A stretch of DNA of 64,000 nucleotides from Oceanispirochaeta crateris. Lineage in GTDB: Bacteria > Spirochaetota > Spirochaetia > DSM-2461. The DNA lies in assembly GCF_008329965.1 (NCBI RefSeq), contig NZ_CP036150.1:2294001-2358000 (forward strand), read 5' to 3'. A program made the translations under genes and the position numbers. Positions 2 through 16,691 of this stretch are shown here, piece by piece. Every line of letters starts with the position of its first letter. Positions within the stretch are counted from its first letter, which is position 1. The notes under the pieces were generated by a model. It was not told where the DNA came from, did not search any database, and saw only the letters and a program-made list of their open reading frames with translations.

Positions 2-1141
2 TTGGGAGCAGAATTTGATCCGACAATGCTGGCTGGAAAACTATCCATTGCCGAGCAGCAGCAGATTGAAATTGCCAGAGCTTTGATTCATGAAAGCAAG
101 GTCCTGATCATGGATGAACCAACGGCCGCCTTGAGTGATAGAGAAACAGAGAAACTCTTTGAAGTCGTTATGTCTCTCAAGAACCAGGGAATTTCCATTA
201 TATATATCAGTCACCGTCTGAATGAAGTGACCCGCATCGCCGATAGAGTCACCGTACTACGAGACGGTAAATACATTGGGACTCTAGCTAAAGAAGAGAT
301 TGTTTCATCCAAAGTAGTGTCCATGATGGTGGGCCGGTCTCTGGATGATTTCTATAAACATGAAATTAATACAGATATCAGAAGAGGCACATTTGTTGTC
401 GAAAATTTCTCCGACGGTAAAACAATCAAGAATGTCAGTTTTGATGTTGGTTCAGGAGAGATCCTTGGTTTGTCAGGACTCGTCGGTGCTGGACGGACTG
501 AAATGGCCAGGATGATCTTCGGTATTGACCGTAAAGTCTCTGGTCAGGTTTATCTGGATGGAGAACAAATTACGATAAAGAACCCCGGCGATGCCATATA
601 TCATGGCCTCGGCTATGTTCCGGAAGACCGAAAGTTGCAGGGTCTTTTTTTAGATATGAGCGTAGGTGACAACATTGGTATGAACGTCCTGGGTAAACTG
701 GCCAAGGGGGGGATTCTTTCAAAGGGGAGTAATAATCGTTTTTCAGGCTCCTCCATAGCAGAATTGAATATTAAGGTAACCTCTCCAAATGTCAGAGTAC
801 AGAAGCTTTCAGGAGGGAACCAGCAAAAGGTTCTTCTCGCCCGCTGGCTGGCCATAAAACCTAAAGTTCTCATCCTGGATGAGCCGACCAGAGGAGTGGA
901 TGTTGGAGCCAAAAGCGAAATATACAGGATTATCGGAGAACTGGCTTCCAGTGGTGTTGCCGTCATCTTCATATCCAGTGAACTCCCCGAAATTGTGGGA
1001 ATCTGTCAGAGAATTCTGATTATGCGCGAAGGAAGTCTTATTGGTGAGATTTCAGATCGCTCAGAGATTACTCAGGAAAATATAATGTCCTATGCCACGG
1101 GTGTCCGTGAAGCAGATTACAGCTATACAAAGGAGGGTTGA
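2..1141 (+). CDS. Sugar ABC transporter ATP-binding protein, RbsA/XylG type (5' end outside window)
   Basis: This is the C-terminal three quarters of a double-domain sugar importer ATPase that powers pentose or hexose uptake at the inner membrane. The first visible part is the end of nucleotide-binding domain 1, with signature LSIAEQQQ and Walker B KVLIMDEPTAALS. Domain 2 follows with the degenerate Walker A GLVGAGRTEM, normal for this family, then signature LSGGNQQKVLLAR and Walker B VLILDEPTRGVDV. The frame is open to the window edge, so the real start and first Walker A lie upstream. The stop is two bases before the GTG of the permease gene, whose ribosome site (AGGAGG, 1131-1136) lies inside this gene, so the two are translationally linked. 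The family is sure; the sugar is not known. Confidence 0.93.
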   Translation: MGAEFDPTMLAGKLSIAEQQQIEIARALIHESKVLIMDEPTAALSDRETEKLFEVVMSLKNQGISIIYISHRLNEVTRIADRVTVLRDGKYIGTLAKEEIVSSKVVSMMVGRSLDDFYKHEINTDIRRGTFVVENFSDGKTIKNVSFDVGSGEILGLSGLVGAGRTEMARMIFGIDRKVSGQVYLDGEQITIKNPGDAIYHGLGYVPEDRKLQGLFLDMSVGDNIGMNVLGKLAKGGILSKGSNNRFSGSSIAELNIKVTSPNVRVQKLSGGNQQKVLLARWLAIKPKVLILDEPTRGVDVGAKSEIYRIIGELASSGVAVIFISSELPEIVGICQRILIMREGSLIGEISDRSEITQENIMSYATGVREADYSYTKEG

Positions 1142-1142
1142 A

Positions 1143-2099
1143 GTGAAAAAGCCCCAATTTTTAACGAATACATCTTTTATGAAGAATCTGGGAATCTTTC
1201 CCATACTGGTACTGATCCTTATTTTGTTCTCATTTCTTAATCCCTACTTTATGACAAATCATAATATGACAAATGTACTGCGCCAAGCCTCCATCAATAT
1301 TGTTTTGGCTGCAGGGATGACAATGGTCATTCTCACAGGTGGTATAGACCTGTCCGTCGGATCAATTCTAGCCTCAGGAGCAGTTATTTCAGTGTCTGTA
1401 TCCCTGATGCCTACACTTGCCCCCCTGGCAGTGCCCATCGGTCTGCTCTTCGGTCTTCTGATCGGACTGATTAATGGAGCTTTGATTTCCTTTGTCGGTT
1501 TGCCGCCCTTTATTGTCACTTTGGGCAGCATGACAGTCTTCAGAGGAGCAGCCTACTTGTTGGCTAATGGCACAACGGTCATAAACAACGACCTTGGATT
1601 TGCCTGGATAGGAAATGAATACATCGGTCCTCTCCCCTGGCTTTCGGCCATTGCTCTGATTGTGATTCTGGCTATCTGGTTTCTCCTGAAGAGAACTGTC
1701 ACGGGTATCCGAATTTATGCCGTGGGAGGAAACGAGGAAGCAGCCAAACTGACGGGAATTAAAACCTGGAAAATACTGCTGATTGTCTATGGATTAAGCG
1801 GTTTGCTTTCAGGTTTGGCCGGAGTCATGCTGGCCAGCCGGCTTTACAGCGGGAACGGGCTACTCGGTCAAGGTTACGAACTGGATGCCATTGCTGCGGT
1901 TATCCTGGGAGGAACCAGTATGACCGGAGGTATTGGAGGAATATTCGGAACCCTTATAGGGGCGCTGATAATTGCGGTACTGAATAATGGTCTAACCATC
2001 ATGAATATTTCCTACTTCTGGCAGTTGGTCATCCGAGGTGTTGTTATCATCATTGCCGTTGTTATTGATAAGTTCAGAGTTTCAAAAATGAGATCTTAG
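1143..2099 (+). CDS. Sugar ABC transporter permease, RbsC type
   Basis: Inner-membrane permease of a ribose/xylose/galactose-type importer, partner of the ATPase just upstream. It is 318 residues with about eight to ten hydrophobic segments. It carries the family landmarks TGGIDLSVGS near residue 75 and GGTSMTGGIGGIFGTLIGA in the last quarter. The GTG start at 1143 is chosen because AGGAGG ends six bases before it; a longer reading from 1092 would run through the upstream gene and has no ribosome site. No binding protein follows, so it is probably upstream of the window. A strong hairpin follows the stop. Confidence 0.92.
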   Translation: MKKPQFLTNTSFMKNLGIFPILVLILILFSFLNPYFMTNHNMTNVLRQASINIVLAAGMTMVILTGGIDLSVGSILASGAVISVSVSLMPTLAPLAVPIGLLFGLLIGLINGALISFVGLPPFIVTLGSMTVFRGAAYLLANGTTVINNDLGFAWIGNEYIGPLPWLSAIALIVILAIWFLLKRTVTGIRIYAVGGNEEAAKLTGIKTWKILLIVYGLSGLLSGLAGVMLASRLYSGNGLLGQGYELDAIAAVILGGTSMTGGIGGIFGTLIGALIIAVLNNGLTIMNISYFWQLVIRGVVIIIAVVIDKFRVSKMRS

Positions 2100-2102
2100 A
2101 GC

Positions 2103-2136
2103 TGTCAGCCATCCCCTTCAGCAGGGATGGCTGACA
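2103..2136. terminator. Bidirectional hairpin between convergent permease genes
   Basis: A perfect 13-bp stem (2103-2115 with 2124-2136, core GTCAGCCATCCC) closes an 8-base loop directly after the permease stop. It lies 17 bases from the stop of the convergent permease gene. There is no long T run, so termination strength is uncertain, but the position suits both strands. Confidence 0.65.
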
Positions 2137-2153
2137 ATCTCTTACCAGCTGTA

Positions 2154-3146
2154 TCAGGTCCTCTTTTTCAGGTCATCCAGATATACAGCAATCAAAATCA
2201 CAAAACCCTTCACAACCAGTTGCCAGAATGAATTGATATTAAGCAGATTCAATCCATTGTTTAAAACTCCGATGACCATGGCACCCAACAAGGCCCCCAT
2301 AAGGCGTCCTGTTCCACCGGTCATACTCATACCGCCAAGAACACAAGCCGCCACCGCATCCAGCTCAAATCCCTGCCCGGCCGATGGCTGTCCCGAATAA
2401 AGGCGGGCCGATAAAATGACACCCGTAAAAGCTGTTATAAATCCCGAAAGGGCGTAAACAGAAAAACGGATACGTCGGACCTTGATACCGGCAAAATAAG
2501 CCGCATCCGTACTGTCTCCCACGGCATAAACATGCCTACCGAAGGTCGTCCGTTTTAATATAAGATCCAGAAGAACAAAAAGTATAACGAGATAAATAAT
2601 CTGAAAAGGGATAGGCCCCATGTAGGCCAGACCGATGCGGTTATAGGACTCAAGGTCGACCCTCACAGGCAGACCGCCTGTATAAATATAGGCAAATCCC
2701 CGAACAATATTCATCATCCCCAGGGTGGCGATAAAGGGAGCAATTCCTGTAGAGGCAATAATCAACCCATTAACAGAACCAATAAGGATTCCCGCTATAA
2801 GAGCGATTCCCACAGCAAGAGGCACAGCAAGACCGGAGATGGCAATGAGACCAGCAGCCAGAGTCCCGGTAAAGGCCATCACCGAACCGACAGAAAGATC
2901 GATCCCTCCGGTGAGGATGACAAAAGTCATGGCCATAGCCAACATACCATTCGTTGAAACCTGCCTCATGATGTTAATCAGATTTCCCGGGGTCAGGAAA
3001 ACAGGACTCATGATGGTCATGACTGTTCCGAGAACAAAGAGTCCAATAAGAGTAGCACCATAGCGTTTAAAATAGGATTGTGCCCCATGGGTGATGATTT
3101 GAAACGACCAGGGATTCCCAGCCAAATCCTGCAGTAAAGGTTTCAA
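2154..3146 (-). CDS. Sugar ABC transporter permease, RbsC type (second system)
   Basis: 330-residue inner-membrane permease, last gene of a leftward operon with the ATPase and binding protein. The N-terminal 30 residues are soluble, followed by repeated hydrophobic segments. TGGIDLSVGSVMAF and GGMSMTGGTGRLMGALLGA match the RbsC family landmarks. Start is a TTG at 3146, backed by AGGAG seven bases upstream; no ATG fits better. It is clearly related to the permease at 1143-2099 but is a separate system. Substrate is unknown; neighbouring pentose genes suggest a pentose-like sugar. Confidence 0.9.
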   Translation of the reverse strand: MKPLLQDLAGNPWSFQIITHGAQSYFKRYGATLIGLFVLGTVMTIMSPVFLTPGNLINIMRQVSTNGMLAMAMTFVILTGGIDLSVGSVMAFTGTLAAGLIAISGLAVPLAVGIALIAGILIGSVNGLIIASTGIAPFIATLGMMNIVRGFAYIYTGGLPVRVDLESYNRIGLAYMGPIPFQIIYLVILFVLLDLILKRTTFGRHVYAVGDSTDAAYFAGIKVRRIRFSVYALSGFITAFTGVILSARLYSGQPSAGQGFELDAVAACVLGGMSMTGGTGRLMGALLGAMVIGVLNNGLNLLNINSFWQLVVKGFVILIAVYLDDLKKRT

Positions 3147-3162
3147 TAATTTTCTCCTGAAT

Positions 3163-4092
3163 TCAATTCCAGCTATTAAAAGCGAATTGGCGGATATTAC
3201 CGCTGTTTATCAAAGTCACTGGAATGATTATTTCTTTTTCAACTGTTTGATGATCCAGATACCTTTCAGCCTGCTCCACCGCCAGTTTGCCCATTTTCAG
3301 GGGAGACTGGGCCACGGTACCCATCATTTTTCCATTCCGGACCATGGCCATCCCTGCAGGAGAACCATCGATAGCATATACCAGAACATTTTTTTTGCGA
3401 TTAGCGGCTTCCAAAGCCGAGATGGCCCCCACGGCAGTGGGATCATTGGTACAAAAGACAACACTGATGTCGTTGTGTGTCTGAAGAATATTTTCCATTT
3501 TGGGAACAGCCCCGTCAATGGACCCGAAGGCACTGCTTGTGGCCACAACTTTGAACTCAGGATGCCCACCAAGAACATCCAGGAAGCCATTCAGTCTGTC
3601 GATAGAGGGTTTATTCGTGGGATGATCCAGAATAGCAATTTTGGCTGACTCTCTGCGGGCGATAAGATCCAATCCGATGAGCTTTCCGGCACCATAATTA
3701 TCCGATGAGATAGTCGAGATCACTAGATCACTATCGTATACGGCAGCATCGATGACAATAACCGGAATCCCGGCTTTAGTAGCCTCTTCCAGAGCGGGTC
3801 TGATTCCCTTCCAGTCTACAGGATTCAGAAAAATGGCATCCACACCCAATGAGATCATATCCTGTATCTGGTCAATTTGTCGAACCTGATCTAAATCTGG
3901 ATTATAGGATAGTAATCTGTCCCCATTTTTTTCACACTGCTCCTTAATACTATCATTCAGAGCCACAAAAAATGAGTTATTCAGAGTCATGAAGGTGGCC
4001 GCATAGGTTCTACCTTTAAACTCCTGCTGCCCCTTCCCGGATAAAAATGCAGGCATTAAAAGGACCACGACAATAAGAAGAAAATGTTTCAA
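3163..4092 (-). CDS. Periplasmic sugar-binding protein of ABC transporter
   Basis: 309-residue periplasmic-binding protein of the ribose/galactose type (Peripla_BP_4). An N-terminal signal peptide (residues 1 to about 19, ending AFLSG) lacks a lipobox Cys, so the protein is probably soluble in the periplasm. The fold landmarks are visible: alternating strands and helices, VDAIFLNPVDWKGI near the hinge, and IPVIVIDAAVYDSDLV. Start is TTG at 4092, overlapping the upstream ATPase stop by four bases (TTGA), with AAGGAGG ten bases upstream. The gene order ATPase, binding protein, permease is unusual but seen in this class. Confidence 0.9.
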   Translation of the reverse strand: MKHFLLIVVVLLMPAFLSGKGQQEFKGRTYAATFMTLNNSFFVALNDSIKEQCEKNGDRLLSYNPDLDQVRQIDQIQDMISLGVDAIFLNPVDWKGIRPALEEATKAGIPVIVIDAAVYDSDLVISTISSDNYGAGKLIGLDLIARRESAKIAILDHPTNKPSIDRLNGFLDVLGGHPEFKVVATSSAFGSIDGAVPKMENILQTHNDISVVFCTNDPTAVGAISALEAANRKKNVLVYAIDGSPAGMAMVRNGKMMGTVAQSPLKMGKLAVEQAERYLDHQTVEKEIIIPVTLINSGNIRQFAFNSWN

Positions 4093-5633
4093 ATCGAGGT
4101 ATCCTCCTTCTTAGAGATTCTGGAATCAATGGCATAATGAAGAATCATCTCCTCATTAAACTCTGTTTTTCTCAGTTCCTTTACAATCTGTCCTGACTTC
4201 ATAATAAGGATTCTATCACAATTGTTTATCAGATCTCCCAATACCGAAGAAATCAGAATAACAGCTGTTTTTTGACCCGCAAGGTTATTAAGAATGGAAA
4301 AAATCTCCTTCGAGCCTTCAATGTCCACTTCTCTGGCCGGTTCATCTACGATGAGGATATCAGGATGATTACTTGTGCACCTGGCAAAGGCCACCTTTTG
4401 CTGAGTTCCCCCACTCAGAGTCTTGACCAATTGATCAGGACTGTATTTTCCAAGTAGAAAACATTCCATGGCGTTCGATATGGCAGCCCGTTCCTTTCTT
4501 TTCAGAATATAGAAGAATTGACTTATCCGTTTAAGTATATTGACTGTCAGATTGAACCCCATGGACTGATCTTCCATGACACCAAAACTATGACGGTCTT
4601 CGGAAGTGTAACCAATGCCCAGATTCAAAGCCTGCCGGGGGGAATCAATAGAGACAGATTTTCCCCTCAATAAGATAGTTCCTTCATCGGGTTTATCCAA
4701 ACCAAAAAGGATACGCCCCAGAGTCGTTCGACCCGATCCGACTAGTCCGGCCAGCCCCAGAACCTCACCCTCTCTCAGACTTAAGGAAATATTTTTTAAA
4801 CGGCGGTTCTTACCCAACCCCTGGACTGTCAGAATTTCATCGCCTCCTGAGAAATGAGGCTTCCAATAATATGTTTGGGTGAATTCTTTGCCTACCATAT
4901 GAGAAATAACATCATCCCTCGTTAACTTTTCTGTCAAGGAGCTGACAATGAGAGCCCCCTCACGCAGCACAGTGATCCTATCGGAGATTCTCAAAACCTC
5001 ATCCAGTTTATGGGAAATATGGATGATACACATTCCCTCATTTCTTAGAATTCCCATAAGACGGTTAAACCTCTCACTTTCGGTAGTTGAAAAGAGATTC
5101 GTAGCTTCGTCCAGGATCAGGATTTTCGGATGCAGATACACTGCTCTCGCTACGGCAAGCATTCTCTTTTCGGCAAGATTCAGCTCTTCCACCCTGGTAC
5201 TGGATGAAAAACTTAACTGCAGCCGTCTCAGTATTTCATCGGATTTCTTGTAAATAGTCTTATAATCGATAACCCCCCAGAGGGAGGGTTCTCTACCGAG
5301 AAAGATATACTCTGCCAGAGTCGATTTTCCAGGAAGGATCAGGTTTTGCCGGACGATGACTATCCCCATTTTAAGAGCAGTCTGATAACCGAGGGATGAC
5401 CAAGTTCTTCCGTTTACCTGAATTTCGCCATTGTCAGGTTTAAGAAGTCCACTTATAATATGTACAAGAGTGGTTTTACCGGCTCCGTTCTCACCCACAA
5501 TGGAGTGTATCTCTCCGGAATGGAAATCCACATTGATATTGCGTAATACAGGGACGGAGTTAAATGAACGGCAAATATCAGAGAGTTTTAAGAGAACATT
5601 CATCCATCTGGAAATTATCATGCCCCTATGCAT
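4089..5633 (-). CDS. Sugar ABC transporter ATP-binding protein, RbsA/MglA type (second system)
   Basis: Double ATPase subunit, 514 residues as read from 5633. A start at ATG 5603 (MNVLLKLSD) fits the domain boundary as well, and neither has a strong ribosome site. Domain 1 has Walker A GENGAGKTT (residues 47-55), a poor signature (LNLAEKRML instead of LSxGxxQ) and Walker B ILILDEATNLF. Domain 2 has the degenerate Walker A GLVGSGRTTLG and signature LSGGTQQKVAFAR. It is the first gene of the leftward transport operon and is divergent from the GntR regulator at 5674. The altered first signature suggests asymmetric ATP hydrolysis, which is inference. Confidence 0.91.
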   Translation of the reverse strand: MHRGMIISRWMNVLLKLSDICRSFNSVPVLRNINVDFHSGEIHSIVGENGAGKTTLVHIISGLLKPDNGEIQVNGRTWSSLGYQTALKMGIVIVRQNLILPGKSTLAEYIFLGREPSLWGVIDYKTIYKKSDEILRRLQLSFSSSTRVEELNLAEKRMLAVARAVYLHPKILILDEATNLFSTTESERFNRLMGILRNEGMCIIHISHKLDEVLRISDRITVLREGALIVSSLTEKLTRDDVISHMVGKEFTQTYYWKPHFSGGDEILTVQGLGKNRRLKNISLSLREGEVLGLAGLVGSGRTTLGRILFGLDKPDEGTILLRGKSVSIDSPRQALNLGIGYTSEDRHSFGVMEDQSMGFNLTVNILKRISQFFYILKRKERAAISNAMECFLLGKYSPDQLVKTLSGGTQQKVAFARCTSNHPDILIVDEPAREVDIEGSKEIFSILNNLAGQKTAVILISSVLGDLINNCDRILIMKSGQIVKELRKTEFNEEMILHYAIDSRISKKEDTSI

Positions 5634-5674
5634 TTGTCAAATTAATTGATAAGTTGAATCAGGTTAATTGACAA
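5634..5674. promoter_or_regulatory. Candidate GntR operator cluster in the divergent intergenic region
   Basis: Three related 7-mers lie between the divergent transporter and regulator genes: TTGTCAA (5634-5640), TTGATAA (5646-5652) and TTGACAA (5668-5674, the exact complement of the first). The first two form an inverted repeat with a 5-base gap. Position and symmetry suit autoregulation by the adjacent GntR protein; this is inferred, not shown. Confidence 0.45.
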
Positions 5675-6756
5675 TGAGTAGCAAAGAATCCAAACACAGA
5701 ATCATCTATAACGACCTCTATAAAAAAATCCAGACCGGGGTATATAAAAAAGGGGATCAGATTCCCACTGAATTTATGCTGGTCAAAGAGTACGGAATAT
5801 CCCGACCCACTGTTGCTAAGGCTCTTAATGACCTTCAGGAAGAAGGCTTAATAGAACGAAAAGTCGGAGCAGGAACCTTTGTCAAAAACACTCCACAGGG
5901 AGAGGAAGACCGTTACCTGGCTCTTCTTGTCCCCGATATAGGCCGTAACCAGATTTTGGAGCCATTATACTCACAGATAGCCCGTTCCTGTGAAGAAGAA
6001 GATTATACCCTCATATGGTCGGGAGCTCTGATAGGAACCTCGGAGGAACGAATACAGCAATCTTTTGAATTCTGCCGAAAGTATATAAAGCAAAATGTAG
6101 CAGGTATTTTTCTGTATCCCGCTTCAGACATACCCACAGAAACCTATGAGAAAATGATCAGCCTTTTTGAGAATGCAGGCATTCCAGTTCTCATCATCTA
6201 TCAAAACCTGTATTCCTTTTCCCGTAACACACCCTATGATTTCTGCGGGATGGACAGCTATGCTATGGGTTACCGGGTCGGATGTTCTCTTATTTCAAAT
6301 GGGAGTGTACATCCTGCCATCTGCTGGGAAGAGGAAAGTCCTCTTATAAGCTCACTCCTCATCAAAGGTTTTGAAGAAGCCGCCCGGGAATCCTCCCTCC
6401 AGGTAAGGACATATCAAATGAACCGAAGTGACAAGCTTGATATAAAAACAGATGAAATCATCGGCTCCGGTACAGATGCCCTGTTCTGTACCTCTGACTC
6501 TCTGGCTGCTGATTTTATGACAGAACTTCTGGACAGAGAAATTAGTATTCCAGGAACCATTCAGGTTGCCGGTCTCGGAAATACCCGCTTTGCCAAACAC
6601 CTGAAAGTCTCTCTCTCCTCTTTGGCTATCAATATGGAAGAAATTGGAAGAATGGCGGTAGACCTGATGCGGCTGCGTCTCAGGAAACCAGGATCTACAC
6701 CACGGAAGATGTTGATTGATGGTCAGTTTCTTGAACGAGAATCAACTCTCTGCTAA
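5674..6756 (+). CDS. GntR-family transcription regulator with LacI-type sugar-sensing domain (AraR-like)
   Basis: 360-residue regulator. Residues about 5-75 form a GntR winged helix: RIIYNDLYKKIQTGVYKKGD, then ISRPTVAKALNDLQEEGLIERKVGAGTFV. Residues about 85-360 are a periplasmic-binding-protein-like effector domain (YLALLVPDIGRN and onward). This layout is that of AraR-type pentose repressors. ATG 5674 is preferred over TTG 5668 because the TTG codon belongs to a candidate operator. It is divergent from the ABC operon at 2154-5633, so it most likely controls that uptake system. The araD pseudogene converges on its end. Confidence 0.88.
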   Translation: MSSKESKHRIIYNDLYKKIQTGVYKKGDQIPTEFMLVKEYGISRPTVAKALNDLQEEGLIERKVGAGTFVKNTPQGEEDRYLALLVPDIGRNQILEPLYSQIARSCEEEDYTLIWSGALIGTSEERIQQSFEFCRKYIKQNVAGIFLYPASDIPTETYEKMISLFENAGIPVLIIYQNLYSFSRNTPYDFCGMDSYAMGYRVGCSLISNGSVHPAICWEEESPLISSLLIKGFEEAARESSLQVRTYQMNRSDKLDIKTDEIIGSGTDALFCTSDSLAADFMTELLDREISIPGTIQVAGLGNTRFAKHLKVSLSSLAINMEEIGRMAVDLMRLRLRKPGSTPRKMLIDGQFLERESTLC

Positions 6757-6828
6757 ACAATAAAATCCCAAGTTTAAGACAATCTTGAAAAAATAGATAT
6801 AAATCACATTCCTCCGGAAAATCCTCCA

Positions 6829-7514
6829 TTATGTATTAGATAAATCATTCAATTTTCTCTCACTCTTAAATGAGCTAAATTCAGTCCTATCATCAATAAC
6901 AAGGGCTTCCATTCTGCATAGCTCTTCATAATCTATAAGTATTTCAGTTGCATTATTTTTACTGTATCCCGTATGATTAGTTCCCCGGTAAAAATCAAGA
7001 CTCCTATGGTTAAAGACAGATCCGCTTAAAGTTTCAAGAGAACCAATACCACAGGCAACCTAGGTAGGTGTTTTCCTAGAAACAAAAGTCTTTTCATCAT
7101 TGATCAGAAGGCAGAAGTGACCTATTCCTGATAATCGACCAGCAACGGGTTTAGATTCTAGTATGTATTCATCTACAGCATGACACCACCGCAGGAGGAA
7201 GTAGAACTATCACTGATACAAAAATCCTTGATTTCTCCAGGATTTTTTATAGCCTCTTTCTTTATAATTTTTGCGGAGTCCCCATCCTGATATCTCAAAT
7301 ATTTAGAAATTTCTTCAATGTGGTTGCACTCCTGCGTCAGTGTATCTTCACCTTTCATTTACGAAGAATAAGCCCCAATTATCTTTATTGCAAATATTCA
7401 ACTTTTACTATCAAGGGCACTCAAATTACCAAAAATACAAATAGTAAGATTTCTAGCGAGGATCAACATATTAACTTCATAGTAGTTCTTCTTCAATTCT
7501 TTCATATAACTCAT
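6829..7514 (-). pseudogene. araD: Decayed L-ribulose-5-phosphate 4-epimerase (AraD-family) gene
   Basis: Read leftward from ATG 7514 (AGAGGG upstream, 15 bases after the LacI-type gene), the frame gives MKELKKNYYEVNMLILARNL and FGNLSALDSKS, then IFAIK. These match the AraD N-terminus (EANLxL, WGNVSAID, FAIKPSG). The frame is broken by TGA at 7398-7400, TAA at 7359-7361 and TAG at 7173-7175. After a frameshift near 7175-7200 the reading resumes in another frame, with an amber at 7060-7062. It then gives GYSKNNATEILIDYEELCRM, matching the AraD C-terminal WGK(x)nA..LEE.A.M motif, and ends at TAA 6829-6831. Total span is about 228 codons, the normal AraD length. At least four lesions make it a true relic, not a sequencing error. 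Confidence 0.8.
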
Positions 7515-7529
7515 AATACCCTCTGCGAT

Positions 7530-8600
7530 TCAGGAATTCCTTGTGTAATGCTCAAAAGTATGCAAATTTTCTTTCGTAATAATATTCAGGGGCGTAATGA
7601 CTACTCTTTGAATTGACTTTTTGAGGACCTGGGAATCATAGAGGGACATGACCCCCTTATACCCCTGATCTTCGGGTTGCTGGGTCAGAATGAAATCGAT
7701 GATGCCCTTCTCAACATAGCCCTCTCTACCGGGAATTAGGTCGTACCCAATCAAGGGAATACGACAGTAAGACTCCCCTCGTTTTTCAAGAAAGGAGGCT
7801 ACGTAATAAACCGATGAGTTGGCTACGAAAATTCCGCTGGGAGGAAACTGGACTCCCCTGAAAAACTCATCCAGACAGGAATGAAAACTTGCCTCATCAT
7901 CCACATCTTCCTTCATATTCAAAAGAAGCGTATCCCTCCGGTTCTCCTGCATAAACTGACGGAATCCATCTATCCTCTTGGCTAGGTGTGGATTGCTTCC
8001 AGGCGGCTCAATAAGCAATATAGATTGACCAGATTCTCCTTGAGGGGAGTGATTGAGAAGCAGACTCATGAGCTTTCCCGAAAGGGCGCCGCTTTGATAA
8101 GAGTCCTGTCCGATATAGGAAAGAGTCCTGGTTAATTCTGGAATATCCGAGTCGATGAACAAGTAAGGGATTGTCAGATCCCTCAAAAAAGGCTTCAAAT
8201 CATCCGGCCGGACGGCGGCGATAAGGAGCCCGTCAACATGAGAGGCCAGTACATCTTTTAGGATAGCCAAACATGATTCTGAAGAATACCTGTCAAATGT
8301 GAATAATTGAACTGTGCTGCCGTAAGAGCCAAGCTCCTGAGCCGCCTTTTCTATGCCCTCTGCAACGAGCTGCCAGTAACCGCCGTCTTGGGCCAGATGA
8401 GGAATCATGGCAGCAAAACTATGGCTCTTCGTTTTCTTCAGACCCCTGGCATGGATATTGGGAATATAGTGAAGCTCTTCCATGGCCTGCCTGACTTTTT
8501 CGGCTGTCTTATCTGAGAAACGGCCTCGCTTATGAATGATCCTGTCTACAGTTCCTATGGAAACACCCACTGCATCTGCAATATCTTTGATAGTAGGCAT
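7530..8600 (-). CDS. LacI-family transcription repressor, sugar-responsive
   Basis: 356 residues. The N-terminal LacI helix-turn-helix is intact (TIKDIADAVGVSIGTVDRII, then the hinge helix region RQAMEELHYIPN). Residues about 60-350 form a periplasmic-binding-protein-like effector domain. ATG 8600 has GGAGG just upstream. It is divergent from the FGGY kinase and was once followed by araD, so its natural regulon was probably an L-ribulose or related pentose pathway. The 18-bp palindrome at 8728-8745 is its most likely operator. Confidence 0.92.
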   Translation of the reverse strand: MPTIKDIADAVGVSIGTVDRIIHKRGRFSDKTAEKVRQAMEELHYIPNIHARGLKKTKSHSFAAMIPHLAQDGGYWQLVAEGIEKAAQELGSYGSTVQLFTFDRYSSESCLAILKDVLASHVDGLLIAAVRPDDLKPFLRDLTIPYLFIDSDIPELTRTLSYIGQDSYQSGALSGKLMSLLLNHSPQGESGQSILLIEPPGSNPHLAKRIDGFRQFMQENRRDTLLLNMKEDVDDEASFHSCLDEFFRGVQFPPSGIFVANSSVYYVASFLEKRGESYCRIPLIGYDLIPGREGYVEKGIIDFILTQQPEDQGYKGVMSLYDSQVLKKSIQRVVITPLNIITKENLHTFEHYTRNS

Positions 8601-8698
8601 TCATCCTCCTCACAGAACAATATCGTAAACTTGTCAAAAACCGCCTTTCATATTTGGCTCCGCAGGTGATCTTCACGGCTGGGAGCATGAAATTTCAA

Positions 8699-8728
8699 TT
8701 GACAGGAAGGCAGTACAGGGACTAAAAT
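8699..8728 (+). promoter_or_regulatory. Sigma-70-type promoter of the FGGY kinase gene
   Basis: TTGACA (8699-8704) and TAAAAT (8723-8728) are separated by 18 bases. The -35 is a perfect consensus and the -10 matches five of six. The predicted transcript start falls inside the adjoining palindrome, giving a leader of about 50 bases. Confidence 0.7.
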
Positions 8729-8745
8729 GCGTTATCGATAACGCA
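8728..8745. promoter_or_regulatory. Perfect 18-bp palindromic operator for LacI-type repressor
   Basis: TGCGTTATCGATAACGCA reads identically on both strands. The central CG, even symmetry and length are typical of LacI/GalR operators. It begins at the last base of the -10 element, so a bound repressor would block the kinase promoter. It lies 128 bases upstream of the divergent repressor gene, so autoregulation is possible. Assignment to the adjacent repressor is inference. Confidence 0.75.
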
Positions 8746-8787
8746 AATAATAAATCCAAATAATAGTGTTGTAAAGGGGAATATAGA

Positions 8788-10374
8788 ATGGGTCTGAAAA
8801 AACAAATTGAATCAGGGCAGGCTGTTCTGGGCATCGAGCTGGGTTCAACCAGGATCAAGGCGGTCCTCATAGATGCGAACAGGAAGCCTATTGCCTCCGG
8901 TGGATATGACTGGGAAAACTCTCTTATTGACGGAGTCTGGACCTATGATCTGGAAGAAGTCTGGACAGGGGTTCAGGGCAGTTATGCCAAACTGAAACAG
9001 GATGTCATGGCAAAATACGGAGTCACTCTTAAAACAGTAAAAGGCCTCGGTTTCAGCGGTATGATGCATGGATATATTGTCTTCGATAAAGAGGACAAAC
9101 AGCTCACCCCCTTCAGGACATGGCGTAACAATTTCACCAGTGAAGCCTCGGCTGCACTGACAGGACGTTTCAACTACAACATACCCCAAAGATGGAGCAT
9201 AGCCCATCTCTATCAGGCTATTTTAAACAATGAATCCCATGTCTCTGAAATCGCTTATATGACAACACTGGCAGGATACATTCACTGGAAACTCACTGGA
9301 GAAAAAGTGATGGGTGTCGGCGAAGCCTCTGGAATGTTCCCCATTGATCTTAAAAGCAAAGAGTTTGATGCCGACCTCATCAACAGCTTTGATACACTCA
9401 TAGAAGAAAAGGGATTCAAATGGAAGCTTAAAGAGATACTGCCCCAGGTGCTGGTTGCAGGAGAGAAAGCAGGAACTCTGACAAAAGAGGGAGCCCTCCT
9501 CCTGGATAGCAGCGGAGAACTGACACCAGGAATTCCCCTTTGTCCTCCCGAAGGCGATGCGGGTACAGGAATGGTTGCCACCAACAGTGTTGCCGTCAGA
9601 ACCGGAAATGTTTCGGCTGGAACGTCTGTGTTCGCCATGCTGGTCCTGGAAAAAGCACTGTCAAAAGTTCATCCCGAGATAGACCTGGTCACTACTCCAG
9701 ACGGCAATCTTGTGGGAATGGCCCACTCCAATAATTGTACCTCCGATTACGATGCCTGGATATCCCTCTTTGGTGAAGCTGCAAAAGCCCTGGGAGCGGA
9801 AGTATCAGTACCGGTCCTCTATGACACCCTACTCGGCCTGTCCCTCAAGGCAGATCCGGATTGTGGAGGTCTTCTGGCTTACGGCTATATCTCAGGAGAA
9901 CATATGACTGGTTTCAGCGAAGGCCGGCCTCTTTTTGCAAGATCGAATGACAGTAACTTTACCCTTCCAAATTTCATAAGAACCCATCTTTTCACCTCTC
10001 TTTGTGCTTTGAAAACGGGCCTGAATATCCTGATAGATGAGGAAAAGGTTGTGGTGGATGAAATAAGAGGACATGGCGGATTTTTCAAGACAGCCGAAGT
10101 GGGACAGAAAATCATGGCCGCCGCGACAAACACTCCAGTTTCTATTCTTGAAACAGCTGGTGAAGGCGGAGCATGGGGCATTGCCCTTCTGGCCTCCTAT
10201 ATGGCTCAAGAAGAAGAACAGACCCTCCCTGAATTTCTCAATGATGTTTTCAAAGAAAGTATGGGTGTTGCGGTAAAACCAGACCCCGCAGATGTGAAAG
10301 GATTTAATTCCTTCTTCGACCGCTACCATAAGGGGCTTCCCCTGGAAAGAGCTGCCGTAGAAAACCTGGATTAA
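8788..10374 (+). CDS. FGGY-family carbohydrate kinase, probable L-ribulokinase/xylulokinase type
   Basis: 528-residue sugar kinase of the actin-like ATPase superfamily. The phosphate-1 loop [17 protein letters not shown] is at residues about 13-30, the sugar-site region [13 protein letters not shown] at about 89, and [19 protein letters not shown] around 274 is the second-domain nucleotide region. The shape fits clostridial and Thermotoga kinases that work with AraD and arabinose isomerase. With the araD relic next door, L-ribulose is the most likely substrate; xylulose or another ketose cannot be excluded. ATG 8788 has AAAGGGG about 9 bases upstream. Its TAA overlaps the stop of the convergent HD-GYP gene. 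Confidence 0.88.
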
Positions 10375-14979: not shown

Positions 14980-15978
14980 TCAGGCCATTGCTTTTTCGAC
15001 GGCAACCGCCACGGCAACAGAAGCACCGACCATGGGGTTATTTCCCATTCCGATGAGTCCCATCATTTCTACGTGAGCCGGTACGGAAGATGACCCTGCG
15101 AACTGAGCGCTGGAGTGCATTCTACCCATGGTATCGGTCATACCATAGGAAGCAGGACCGGCAGCCATATTGTCAGGATGCAGAGTCCGTCCTGTTCCTC
15201 CACCGGAGGCTACAGAAAAGAAGTCTTTTCCCTGCTCATTGCACTCTTTTTTATAGATACCTGCTGTGGGGTGCTGGAATCTTGTGGGGTTTGTAGAGTT
15301 ACCTGTAATGGAAACATCTACGCCCTCTTTGTGCATAACAGCAACACCTTCAGAAACATCATCCACACCATAACAGTTGATGGTCCCTCTGTCTCCATCG
15401 GAGAATTTGGTTTCCTTCACAACGGCAAGTTCCCCTGTTTCATAGTTGTACTTGGTTTCTACATAGTTGAACCCGTTGATTCTGGAAATCAGGTAGGCTG
15501 CATCCTTACCAAGTCCGTTCAGGATTACCCGCAGGGGTGCTTTTCTAACAGTATTGGCATTCTGGGCAATCTTAATTGCACCTTCAGCGGCTGCAAATGA
15601 CTCATGACCAGCAAGGAAACAGAAGCAGTTGGATTCATCGCTCAGGAGTCTGGCGGCCAAATTTCCATGACCAATACCGACTTTTCGCTGATCTGCAACA
15701 GAACCGGGAATACAGAAAGCCTGAAGGCCTTCACCCAAAACCTCAGCAGCCTCACTGGCTTTTTTTATGCCCCGTTTAACAGCAATAGCCGCCCCGAGAA
15801 CGTAAGCCCAGCTGGCGTTTTCAAAAGCGATATTCTGTGTTTCTTTAACGATTTCATAAGGATCGAAGCCTTTATCGGTACAGATCTTCCTAGCTTCTTC
15901 AAGGGATGAGATGCCGTTCTCTTTGAGAACTACTTCAATCTGTTTTATTCTTCTTTCATAACTTTCAAACAGTGCCAT
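14980..15978 (-). CDS. GGGtGRT protein
   Basis: 332-residue protein of the family named for its GGGTGRT motif, here residues 259-265. A glycine-rich C-terminus follows (MGLIGMGNNPMVGAS). Other features are a helical N-terminus, CFCFLAGHESFAAAEGAI near 118-135, and no signal peptide or membrane segment, so it is cytoplasmic. No biochemical role is established that I can name. It follows an iron-sulfur scaffold gene by 17 bases and shares its transcript, with GGAGG 12 bases before the ATG and a terminator after it. That pairing suggests a role in metal-cluster assembly or use, which is inference. Confidence 0.88.
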   Translation of the reverse strand: MALFESYERRIKQIEVVLKENGISSLEEARKICTDKGFDPYEIVKETQNIAFENASWAYVLGAAIAVKRGIKKASEAAEVLGEGLQAFCIPGSVADQRKVGIGHGNLAARLLSDESNCFCFLAGHESFAAAEGAIKIAQNANTVRKAPLRVILNGLGKDAAYLISRINGFNYVETKYNYETGELAVVKETKFSDGDRGTINCYGVDDVSEGVAVMHKEGVDVSITGNSTNPTRFQHPTAGIYKKECNEQGKDFFSVASGGGTGRTLHPDNMAAGPASYGMTDTMGRMHSSAQFAGSSSVPAHVEMMGLIGMGNNPMVGASVAVAVAVEKAMA

Positions 15979-15995: not shown

Positions 15996-16691
15996 CTACT
16001 CGTGTCTCGGGTTAACAAATTTCACACCCTCGGCAAAACGACCATAGCTATTAGTACAGGCTTTAACCGCTTCATTGGCGTCTTTACCGTCTTTGATAAT
16101 CATATCCATCATGGGTCCTGTTTTTACATACTCATAACCGATGATCTCATCATTCTTATCCAGAGCCAGTTTGCTAATATAACCTTCGGCAAGATTAAGG
16201 TACCTGGCACCCTTGGCCTTTGTACCATAGGTGGTTCCCACCTGGGAAACGAGTCCTTTACCAAGGTCTTCCAATCCGGCACCCACGGGCAGTCCACCCT
16301 CTGAGAACGCAGTCTGGGAACGACCATAGGCGATCTGAAGAAACAGTTCTCTCATGGCAACATTGATTGCATCACAAACAAGGTCGGTATTGAGGGCTTC
16401 CAGAATAGTCTTTCCTGTGAGCAGTTCTGAGGCCATAGCCGCAGAATGAGTCATCCCGGAGCAACCGATTGTTTCAATCAGACACTCTTCGATGATCCCT
16501 TCCTTGATGTTTAATGACAGTTTACATACACCCTGCTGGGGTGCACACCAGCCGGCTCCATGGGTAAACCCGGAGATGTCGGTAACTTCCTTAGCAACCC
16601 TGAATTTTCCTTCCATCGGAATGGGCGAAGATTCATGCTTGGGTCCTCTGGAAATGGGACACATTTCTTTTACTTCTACAGAGTATTCCAT
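15996..16691 (-). CDS. NifU/IscU-like iron-sulfur cluster scaffold protein (GGGtGRT partner)
   Basis: 231 residues. The central region resembles the IscU/NifU-N scaffold: LIETIGCSGMTHSAAMASEL and LLTGKTILEAL match the GCG..AIASSxLTELxxGKTxxEA pattern. Candidate cluster ligands are C49 and C56 (GWCAPQQGVC), C77 (IGCSG) and C106; C11, C70 and C212 are extra. The usual third IscU ligand motif HCS is not visible. Residues about 155-230 are an extension beyond the 125-residue IscU fold. ATG 16691 has GGAGG upstream. It is first in a two-gene unit with the GGGtGRT protein, so it is not a housekeeping IscU beside IscS. Confidence 0.85.
   Translation of the reverse strand: MEYSVEVKEMCPISRGPKHESSPIPMEGKFRVAKEVTDISGFTHGAGWCAPQQGVCKLSLNIKEGIIEECLIETIGCSGMTHSAAMASELLTGKTILEALNTDLVCDAINVAMRELFLQIAYGRSQTAFSEGGLPVGAGLEDLGKGLVSQVGTTYGTKAKGARYLNLAEGYISKLALDKNDEIIGYEYVKTGPMMDMIIKDGKDANEAVKACTNSYGRFAEGVKFVNPRHE

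Follow-up and report, generated by a model that had tools for sequence, protein, structure and literature searches.

What has the pentose locus of Oceanispirochaeta crateris lost, and what do the genes that remain around the loss serve? L-arabinose is a plant sugar, and araA and araD are among the usual genes for its use. In the window (the whole stretch of 64,000 nucleotides that was analyzed), a broken coding relic lies on the minus strand at 6829-7514. An earlier note, made from the sequence alone, took it for a decayed araD gene of about 228 codons inside an otherwise intact locus. We find that the relic spans two genes, araD and araA, so that the locus is not otherwise intact and the AraD-like length is a deletion accident.

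The relic was read in all three frames of the minus strand. Its ATG at 7514 aligns with the araD start of the closest relative, a member of the same genus designated G002. Five in-frame stops interrupt it (TGA 7400-7398, TAA 7361-7359, and TAG at 7175-7173, 7160-7158 and 7062-7060), and the frame shifts by about 5 bases near 7132. All of these breaks except the third TAG had been listed in the earlier note. Tblastn with the G002 proteins as queries resolves the relic into three pieces, collinear as AraD 1-57, AraA 18-83 and AraA 447-494. The 5′ piece, at 56% identity to G002 AraD (E 9e-12), contains FGNLSALD, correctly recognized before as an N-terminal AraD signature, and matches AraD model NF006047 at 3.4e-7 over model residues 2-55. 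The middle piece is 53% identical to G002 AraA (4e-15), and about 60 residues of it match PF02610 AraA_N at 1.5e-4. The 3′ piece is 67% identical to G002 AraA (2e-15). The last 50 or so residues, including GYSKNNATEI, match positions 446-493 of the L-arabinose isomerase model NF002795; this motif had been assigned to the C-terminus of AraD and belongs to AraA instead. A translated search of the relic against AraD, as proposed in the note, succeeds for the first quarter, but the remainder matches AraA, at both its N- and C-terminal regions. Whole-genome HMM searches independently recovered the same pieces. As a control for chance, 500 dinucleotide shuffles searched with the G002 proteins gave a maximum of 27 bits, compared to 56-71 bits for each real piece, which excludes chance as the source of the matches. 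A search of 5000-9000 against Rfam matched no RNA family, so a known structured RNA does not explain the stretch. Table 1 collects the features.

Table 1. The araD-araA relic and its neighbors, in window coordinates.
Feature	Position	Strand	Basis or remark
araD remnant (L-ribulose-5-phosphate 4-epimerase), codons 1-~53	7355-7514	-	tblastn, NF006047; TGA and TAA inside
Junction 1, araD codon ~53 / araA codon ~19	7344-7358	-	breakpoint fit on G002 sequence
araA remnant (L-arabinose isomerase), codons ~19-84	7161-7354	-	tblastn, PF02610, HMM; TAG inside
Junction 2, araA codon ~84 / codon ~392	7150-7163	-	alignment to three intact orthologues
araA C-terminus remnant, codons ~392-495	6829-7154	-	tblastn, NF002795, nucleotide alignment
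LacI-family repressor, intact	7530-8600	-	PF00356 and PF13407; directly upstream of araD in relatives
FGGY pentulokinase-like gene, intact, divergent	8788-10374	+	PF00370/PF02782
AraR-like regulator, intact, converging on relic	5668-6756	+	PF00392 and PF13377
Sugar ABC transporter ATPase, intact	4089-5633	-	xylose/arabinose/ribose-type ATPase models; divergent from AraR-like gene
Sugar-binding protein of the same transporter, intact	3163-4092	-	PF13407
Permease, intact, presumably of the same transporter	2154-3146	-	open frame, position

The relatives document what stood here. At the same position between the same neighbors, G002 carries intact araD (233 aa) and intact araA (505 aa). The G002 gene order, sugar-binding protein, ATPase, AraR, araA, araD, LacI, kinase and an HD/GAF gene, is that of the O. 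crateris locus, and the genes intact in both are 73-90% identical. Two congeners (G001 and G004) have LacI-araD-araA with both enzyme genes intact, and the G003 contig runs through LacI and araD and breaks off after the start of araA. The same LacI-araD-araA order is found in two more distant Spirochaetales records (L029 and L031). In L031, an isomerase-like gene of 480 aa (1847-3289, plus strand) with a weak match to sulfoquinovose isomerase precedes a kinase-LacI-araD-araA block. The relatives thereby resemble araBAD-type loci under LacI/AraR control, with araD and araA behind LacI and divergent from an FGGY kinase; O. crateris differs in that araD and araA form one fused, broken remnant.

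Compared to G002, two internal deletions account for the fusion. The first removed about 756 bases, comprising the rest of araD, the intergenic region and the start of araA, and the second about 0.92 kb between araA codons ~84 and ~392. The two deletions together amount to about 1.7 kb and leave the araD-araA pair at about one third of its length. Because the relic sequence has diverged, the junctions are placed only to about 15 bases. The position of junction 2 is approximate and comes from alignment with three intact orthologues, which we preferred to an ungapped breakpoint fit whose diagonal conflicts with the gapped alignment. No open AraD frame remains, with TGA and TAA in the N-terminal piece and the codons past ~53 deleted, and no complete AraA frame remains, with about 0.92 kb of its center gone in addition to the stops and the frameshift. 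The relic is a pseudogene pair, araD-araA, and from its stops, frameshift and deletions we infer that it makes no functional enzyme.

The mode of decay can be read from changes specific to the O. crateris branch, polarized with G004 and G001 as outgroups and counted per eligible site. In the relic, 42/184, 49/198 and 27/100 sites of codon positions 1, 2 and 3 had changed (0.228, 0.247 and 0.270; p = 0.73). The intact G002 copies changed at 3, 1 and 12 of the same sites (0.016, 0.005 and 0.12). Equal change at all three codon positions indicates that the decay is neutral. At positions 1 and 2 combined, the relic has 91/382 changes versus 18/934 in the kinase of the same locus (p = 3e-35). The relic's rate at these two positions has reached the third-position rates of its neighbors, and so the decay has probably been going on for a large part of the period after the lineages of O. 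crateris and G002 separated. These rates carry no absolute date, but they suggest that the decay is not very recent. The GC content of the relic is 0.35, versus 0.49-0.53 in G002 araD and araA; the flanks are mostly at 0.41-0.50.

The neighbors have fared differently from the relic: the tested ones (kinase, LacI, AraR-like regulator and ATPase) are under purifying selection. As previously noted, the relic begins 15 bases after the stop of an intact LacI gene, and the divergent kinase is likewise intact. The kinase has an omega of 0.046 versus G002, and its own-branch changes at positions 1, 2 and 3 (0.017, 0.021 and 0.171) are distributed as in a gene under constraint. LacI is 76% identical to its G002 counterpart and free of internal stops, with an omega of 0.072 and own-branch changes of 0.076, 0.053 and 0.202. 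The AraR-like regulator, a GntR DNA-binding domain (residues 13-72) fused to a LacI-type sensor (209-360), is 90% identical at the same position in G002 (omega 0.055). The ATPase is 88.5% identical (omega 0.065), and the sugar-binding protein 87% over the part compared. The permease gene stands tail to tail with another ABC permease gene (1092-2099, plus strand), and the two apparently belong to different transporters.

Whole-genome profile searches found no standard-family AraA or AraD above cut-off elsewhere in the genome. The suggestion that the epimerase might persist elsewhere finds no support in these searches: the search for araD and araA that the note had proposed returned only distant paralogues beyond the relic itself. 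The AraD superfamily appears outside the relic in two places only, a class II aldolase at C1:2693810, with 47 bits against a cut-off of 257, and a 373-aa aldolase-type gene adjoining an isomerase-type gene. The sole other full-length AraA-family protein (457 aa; C1:3233077-3234414, equivalent to L138:7090-8463 on the minus strand) has the AraA central and C-terminal domains and scores 95-97 bits against a cut-off of 622. Its neighbors are an amidohydrolase-like gene, a carrier and a deacetylase, with no sugar genes. A non-orthologous arabinose isomerase has been predicted in Caldicellulosiruptor (PMC8579813), and the C1:3233077 and C1:2693810 proteins could in principle stand in for the lost enzymes. 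GH51 arabinofuranosidase has three matches in G002 and none in the O. crateris genome. Genes for xylose isomerase and for a xylulokinase that passes its cut-off lie together at another genomic site, which makes the kinase of this locus dispensable for D-xylose. The part of the Oceanispirochaeta literature that was available to us gave no arabinose growth data.

What, then, does the kinase act on? Against the ribulokinase model NF003154 it scores 36 bits and does not reach the cut-off of 428; its best NCBIfam model is XylB, at 117.5 bits and below the cut-off of 380. Orthologues at 63-73% identity are present in seven related genomes (G005, G006, G011, G015, G018, G020 and G025), several of them incomplete drafts, in which araA was not found. 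Since the kinase occurs without detectable araA, it probably acts on a pentulose other than L-ribulose, in its place or alongside it. The neighborhoods of these orthologues and of second copies of the kinase have no single constant partner gene, and therefore do not identify the substrate. The partners seen are a PfkB kinase, a GH43-like gene, an MCP, sugar ABC genes and a zinc-type polyol/alcohol dehydrogenase, the last two accompanying the second copy in G001. Phosphorylation of L-ribulose is suggested solely by genome context in the relatives, and calling the kinase AraB on the evidence of its neighbors would be unsafe.

The reading that we hold with high confidence is one of ordinary pathway erosion. 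An ancestor with the usual L-arabinose genes suffered two large deletions that merged araD and araA into one remnant, which has drifted neutrally and yields no functional enzyme. Since the later relic pieces are araA, the isomerase and the epimerase were lost together. The earlier inference that the epimerase is lost while repressor and kinase are kept was right on all three counts, but it was incomplete. The standard L-arabinose route went with the two enzymes, and growth on L-arabinose presumably with it. The kinase, LacI, the AraR-like regulator and the ABC transporter were retained by selection, the kinase most likely for another 2-ketopentose such as D-ribulose, D-xylulose or L-xylulose, none of which would require AraA or AraD.

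The simpler proposal of a decayed araD alone has its first ~53 codons and a total length equal to that of AraD in its favor. It is nevertheless very hard to credit, as the other three quarters match AraA in AraA order, both later pieces refute it, and the AraD model matches, confined to residues 2-58, do not pass relic residue 62. The length of 228 codons is a coincidence of two deletions across two genes. The idea that the genes are intact and only look broken through sequencing or assembly errors has nothing to recommend it and is close to inconceivable: it does not explain the missing 1.7 kb, and errors cannot cause either equal drift at all codon positions or a GC content some 13-18 points under that of the intact orthologues.

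It is also conceivable that the whole locus is dying, with the kinase, LacI, AraR-like regulator and transporter next in line and too little time elapsed to break them. LacI has indeed evolved slightly faster than in G002 (38 versus 22 changes at positions 1 and 2, p = 0.046). We consider this unlikely, since the relic has been near the neutral rate for much of the branch while the kinase has fewer changes at positions 1 and 2 than in G002 (18/934 versus 27), the tested neighbors are stop-free with omega values of 0.05-0.08, and kinase orthologues persist where araA was not found. We would give slightly less credence to continued use of L-arabinose, with the missing steps taken over by the C1:3233077 and C1:2693810 proteins and L-ribulose still phosphorylated by the kinase of the locus. 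Both frames are open and of plausible families, but their scores fall far under the cut-offs, the C1:3233077 gene sits away from sugar genes, and GH51 is missing too. Erosion of the L-arabinose pathway within a selected neighborhood leaves room for a bolder extension, that the locus is now an uptake-phosphorylation module for a different pentulose, e.g., D-ribulose, to which the regulators once tied to arabinose have been retuned. We offer this tentatively, as doubtful but worth keeping in mind; if true, it would be a natural substrate switch of a sugar locus through gene loss.

Two further systems invite comparison. In the maltodextrin locus of Shewanella oneidensis MR-1, pathway genes are likewise broken in one species and kept in relatives (PMC2996990); the O. 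crateris case differs in that two internal deletions fuse adjacent genes. A remnant of one gene's length is here two deletion-fused genes, and recognizing this changes the metabolic reading to loss of both isomerase and epimerase. In EHEC, AraB phosphorylates D-ribulose and the product enters the pentose phosphate pathway; with the Aau transporter, an arabinose-type kinase is thus fed D-ribulose with no need of AraA or AraD (PMC12307932). EHEC employs the canonical ara machinery for this, and a parallel to the O. crateris locus would be by analogy. In O. crateris, selection maintains the kinase and the nearby transporter in the absence of the L-arabinose pathway.

Elsewhere in the window, a GGGtGRT-family protein (PF14057) is encoded at 14980-15978 on the minus strand, adjoining a gene at 15996-16691 on the same strand whose 231-aa product resembles, by eye, an iron-sulfur scaffold.
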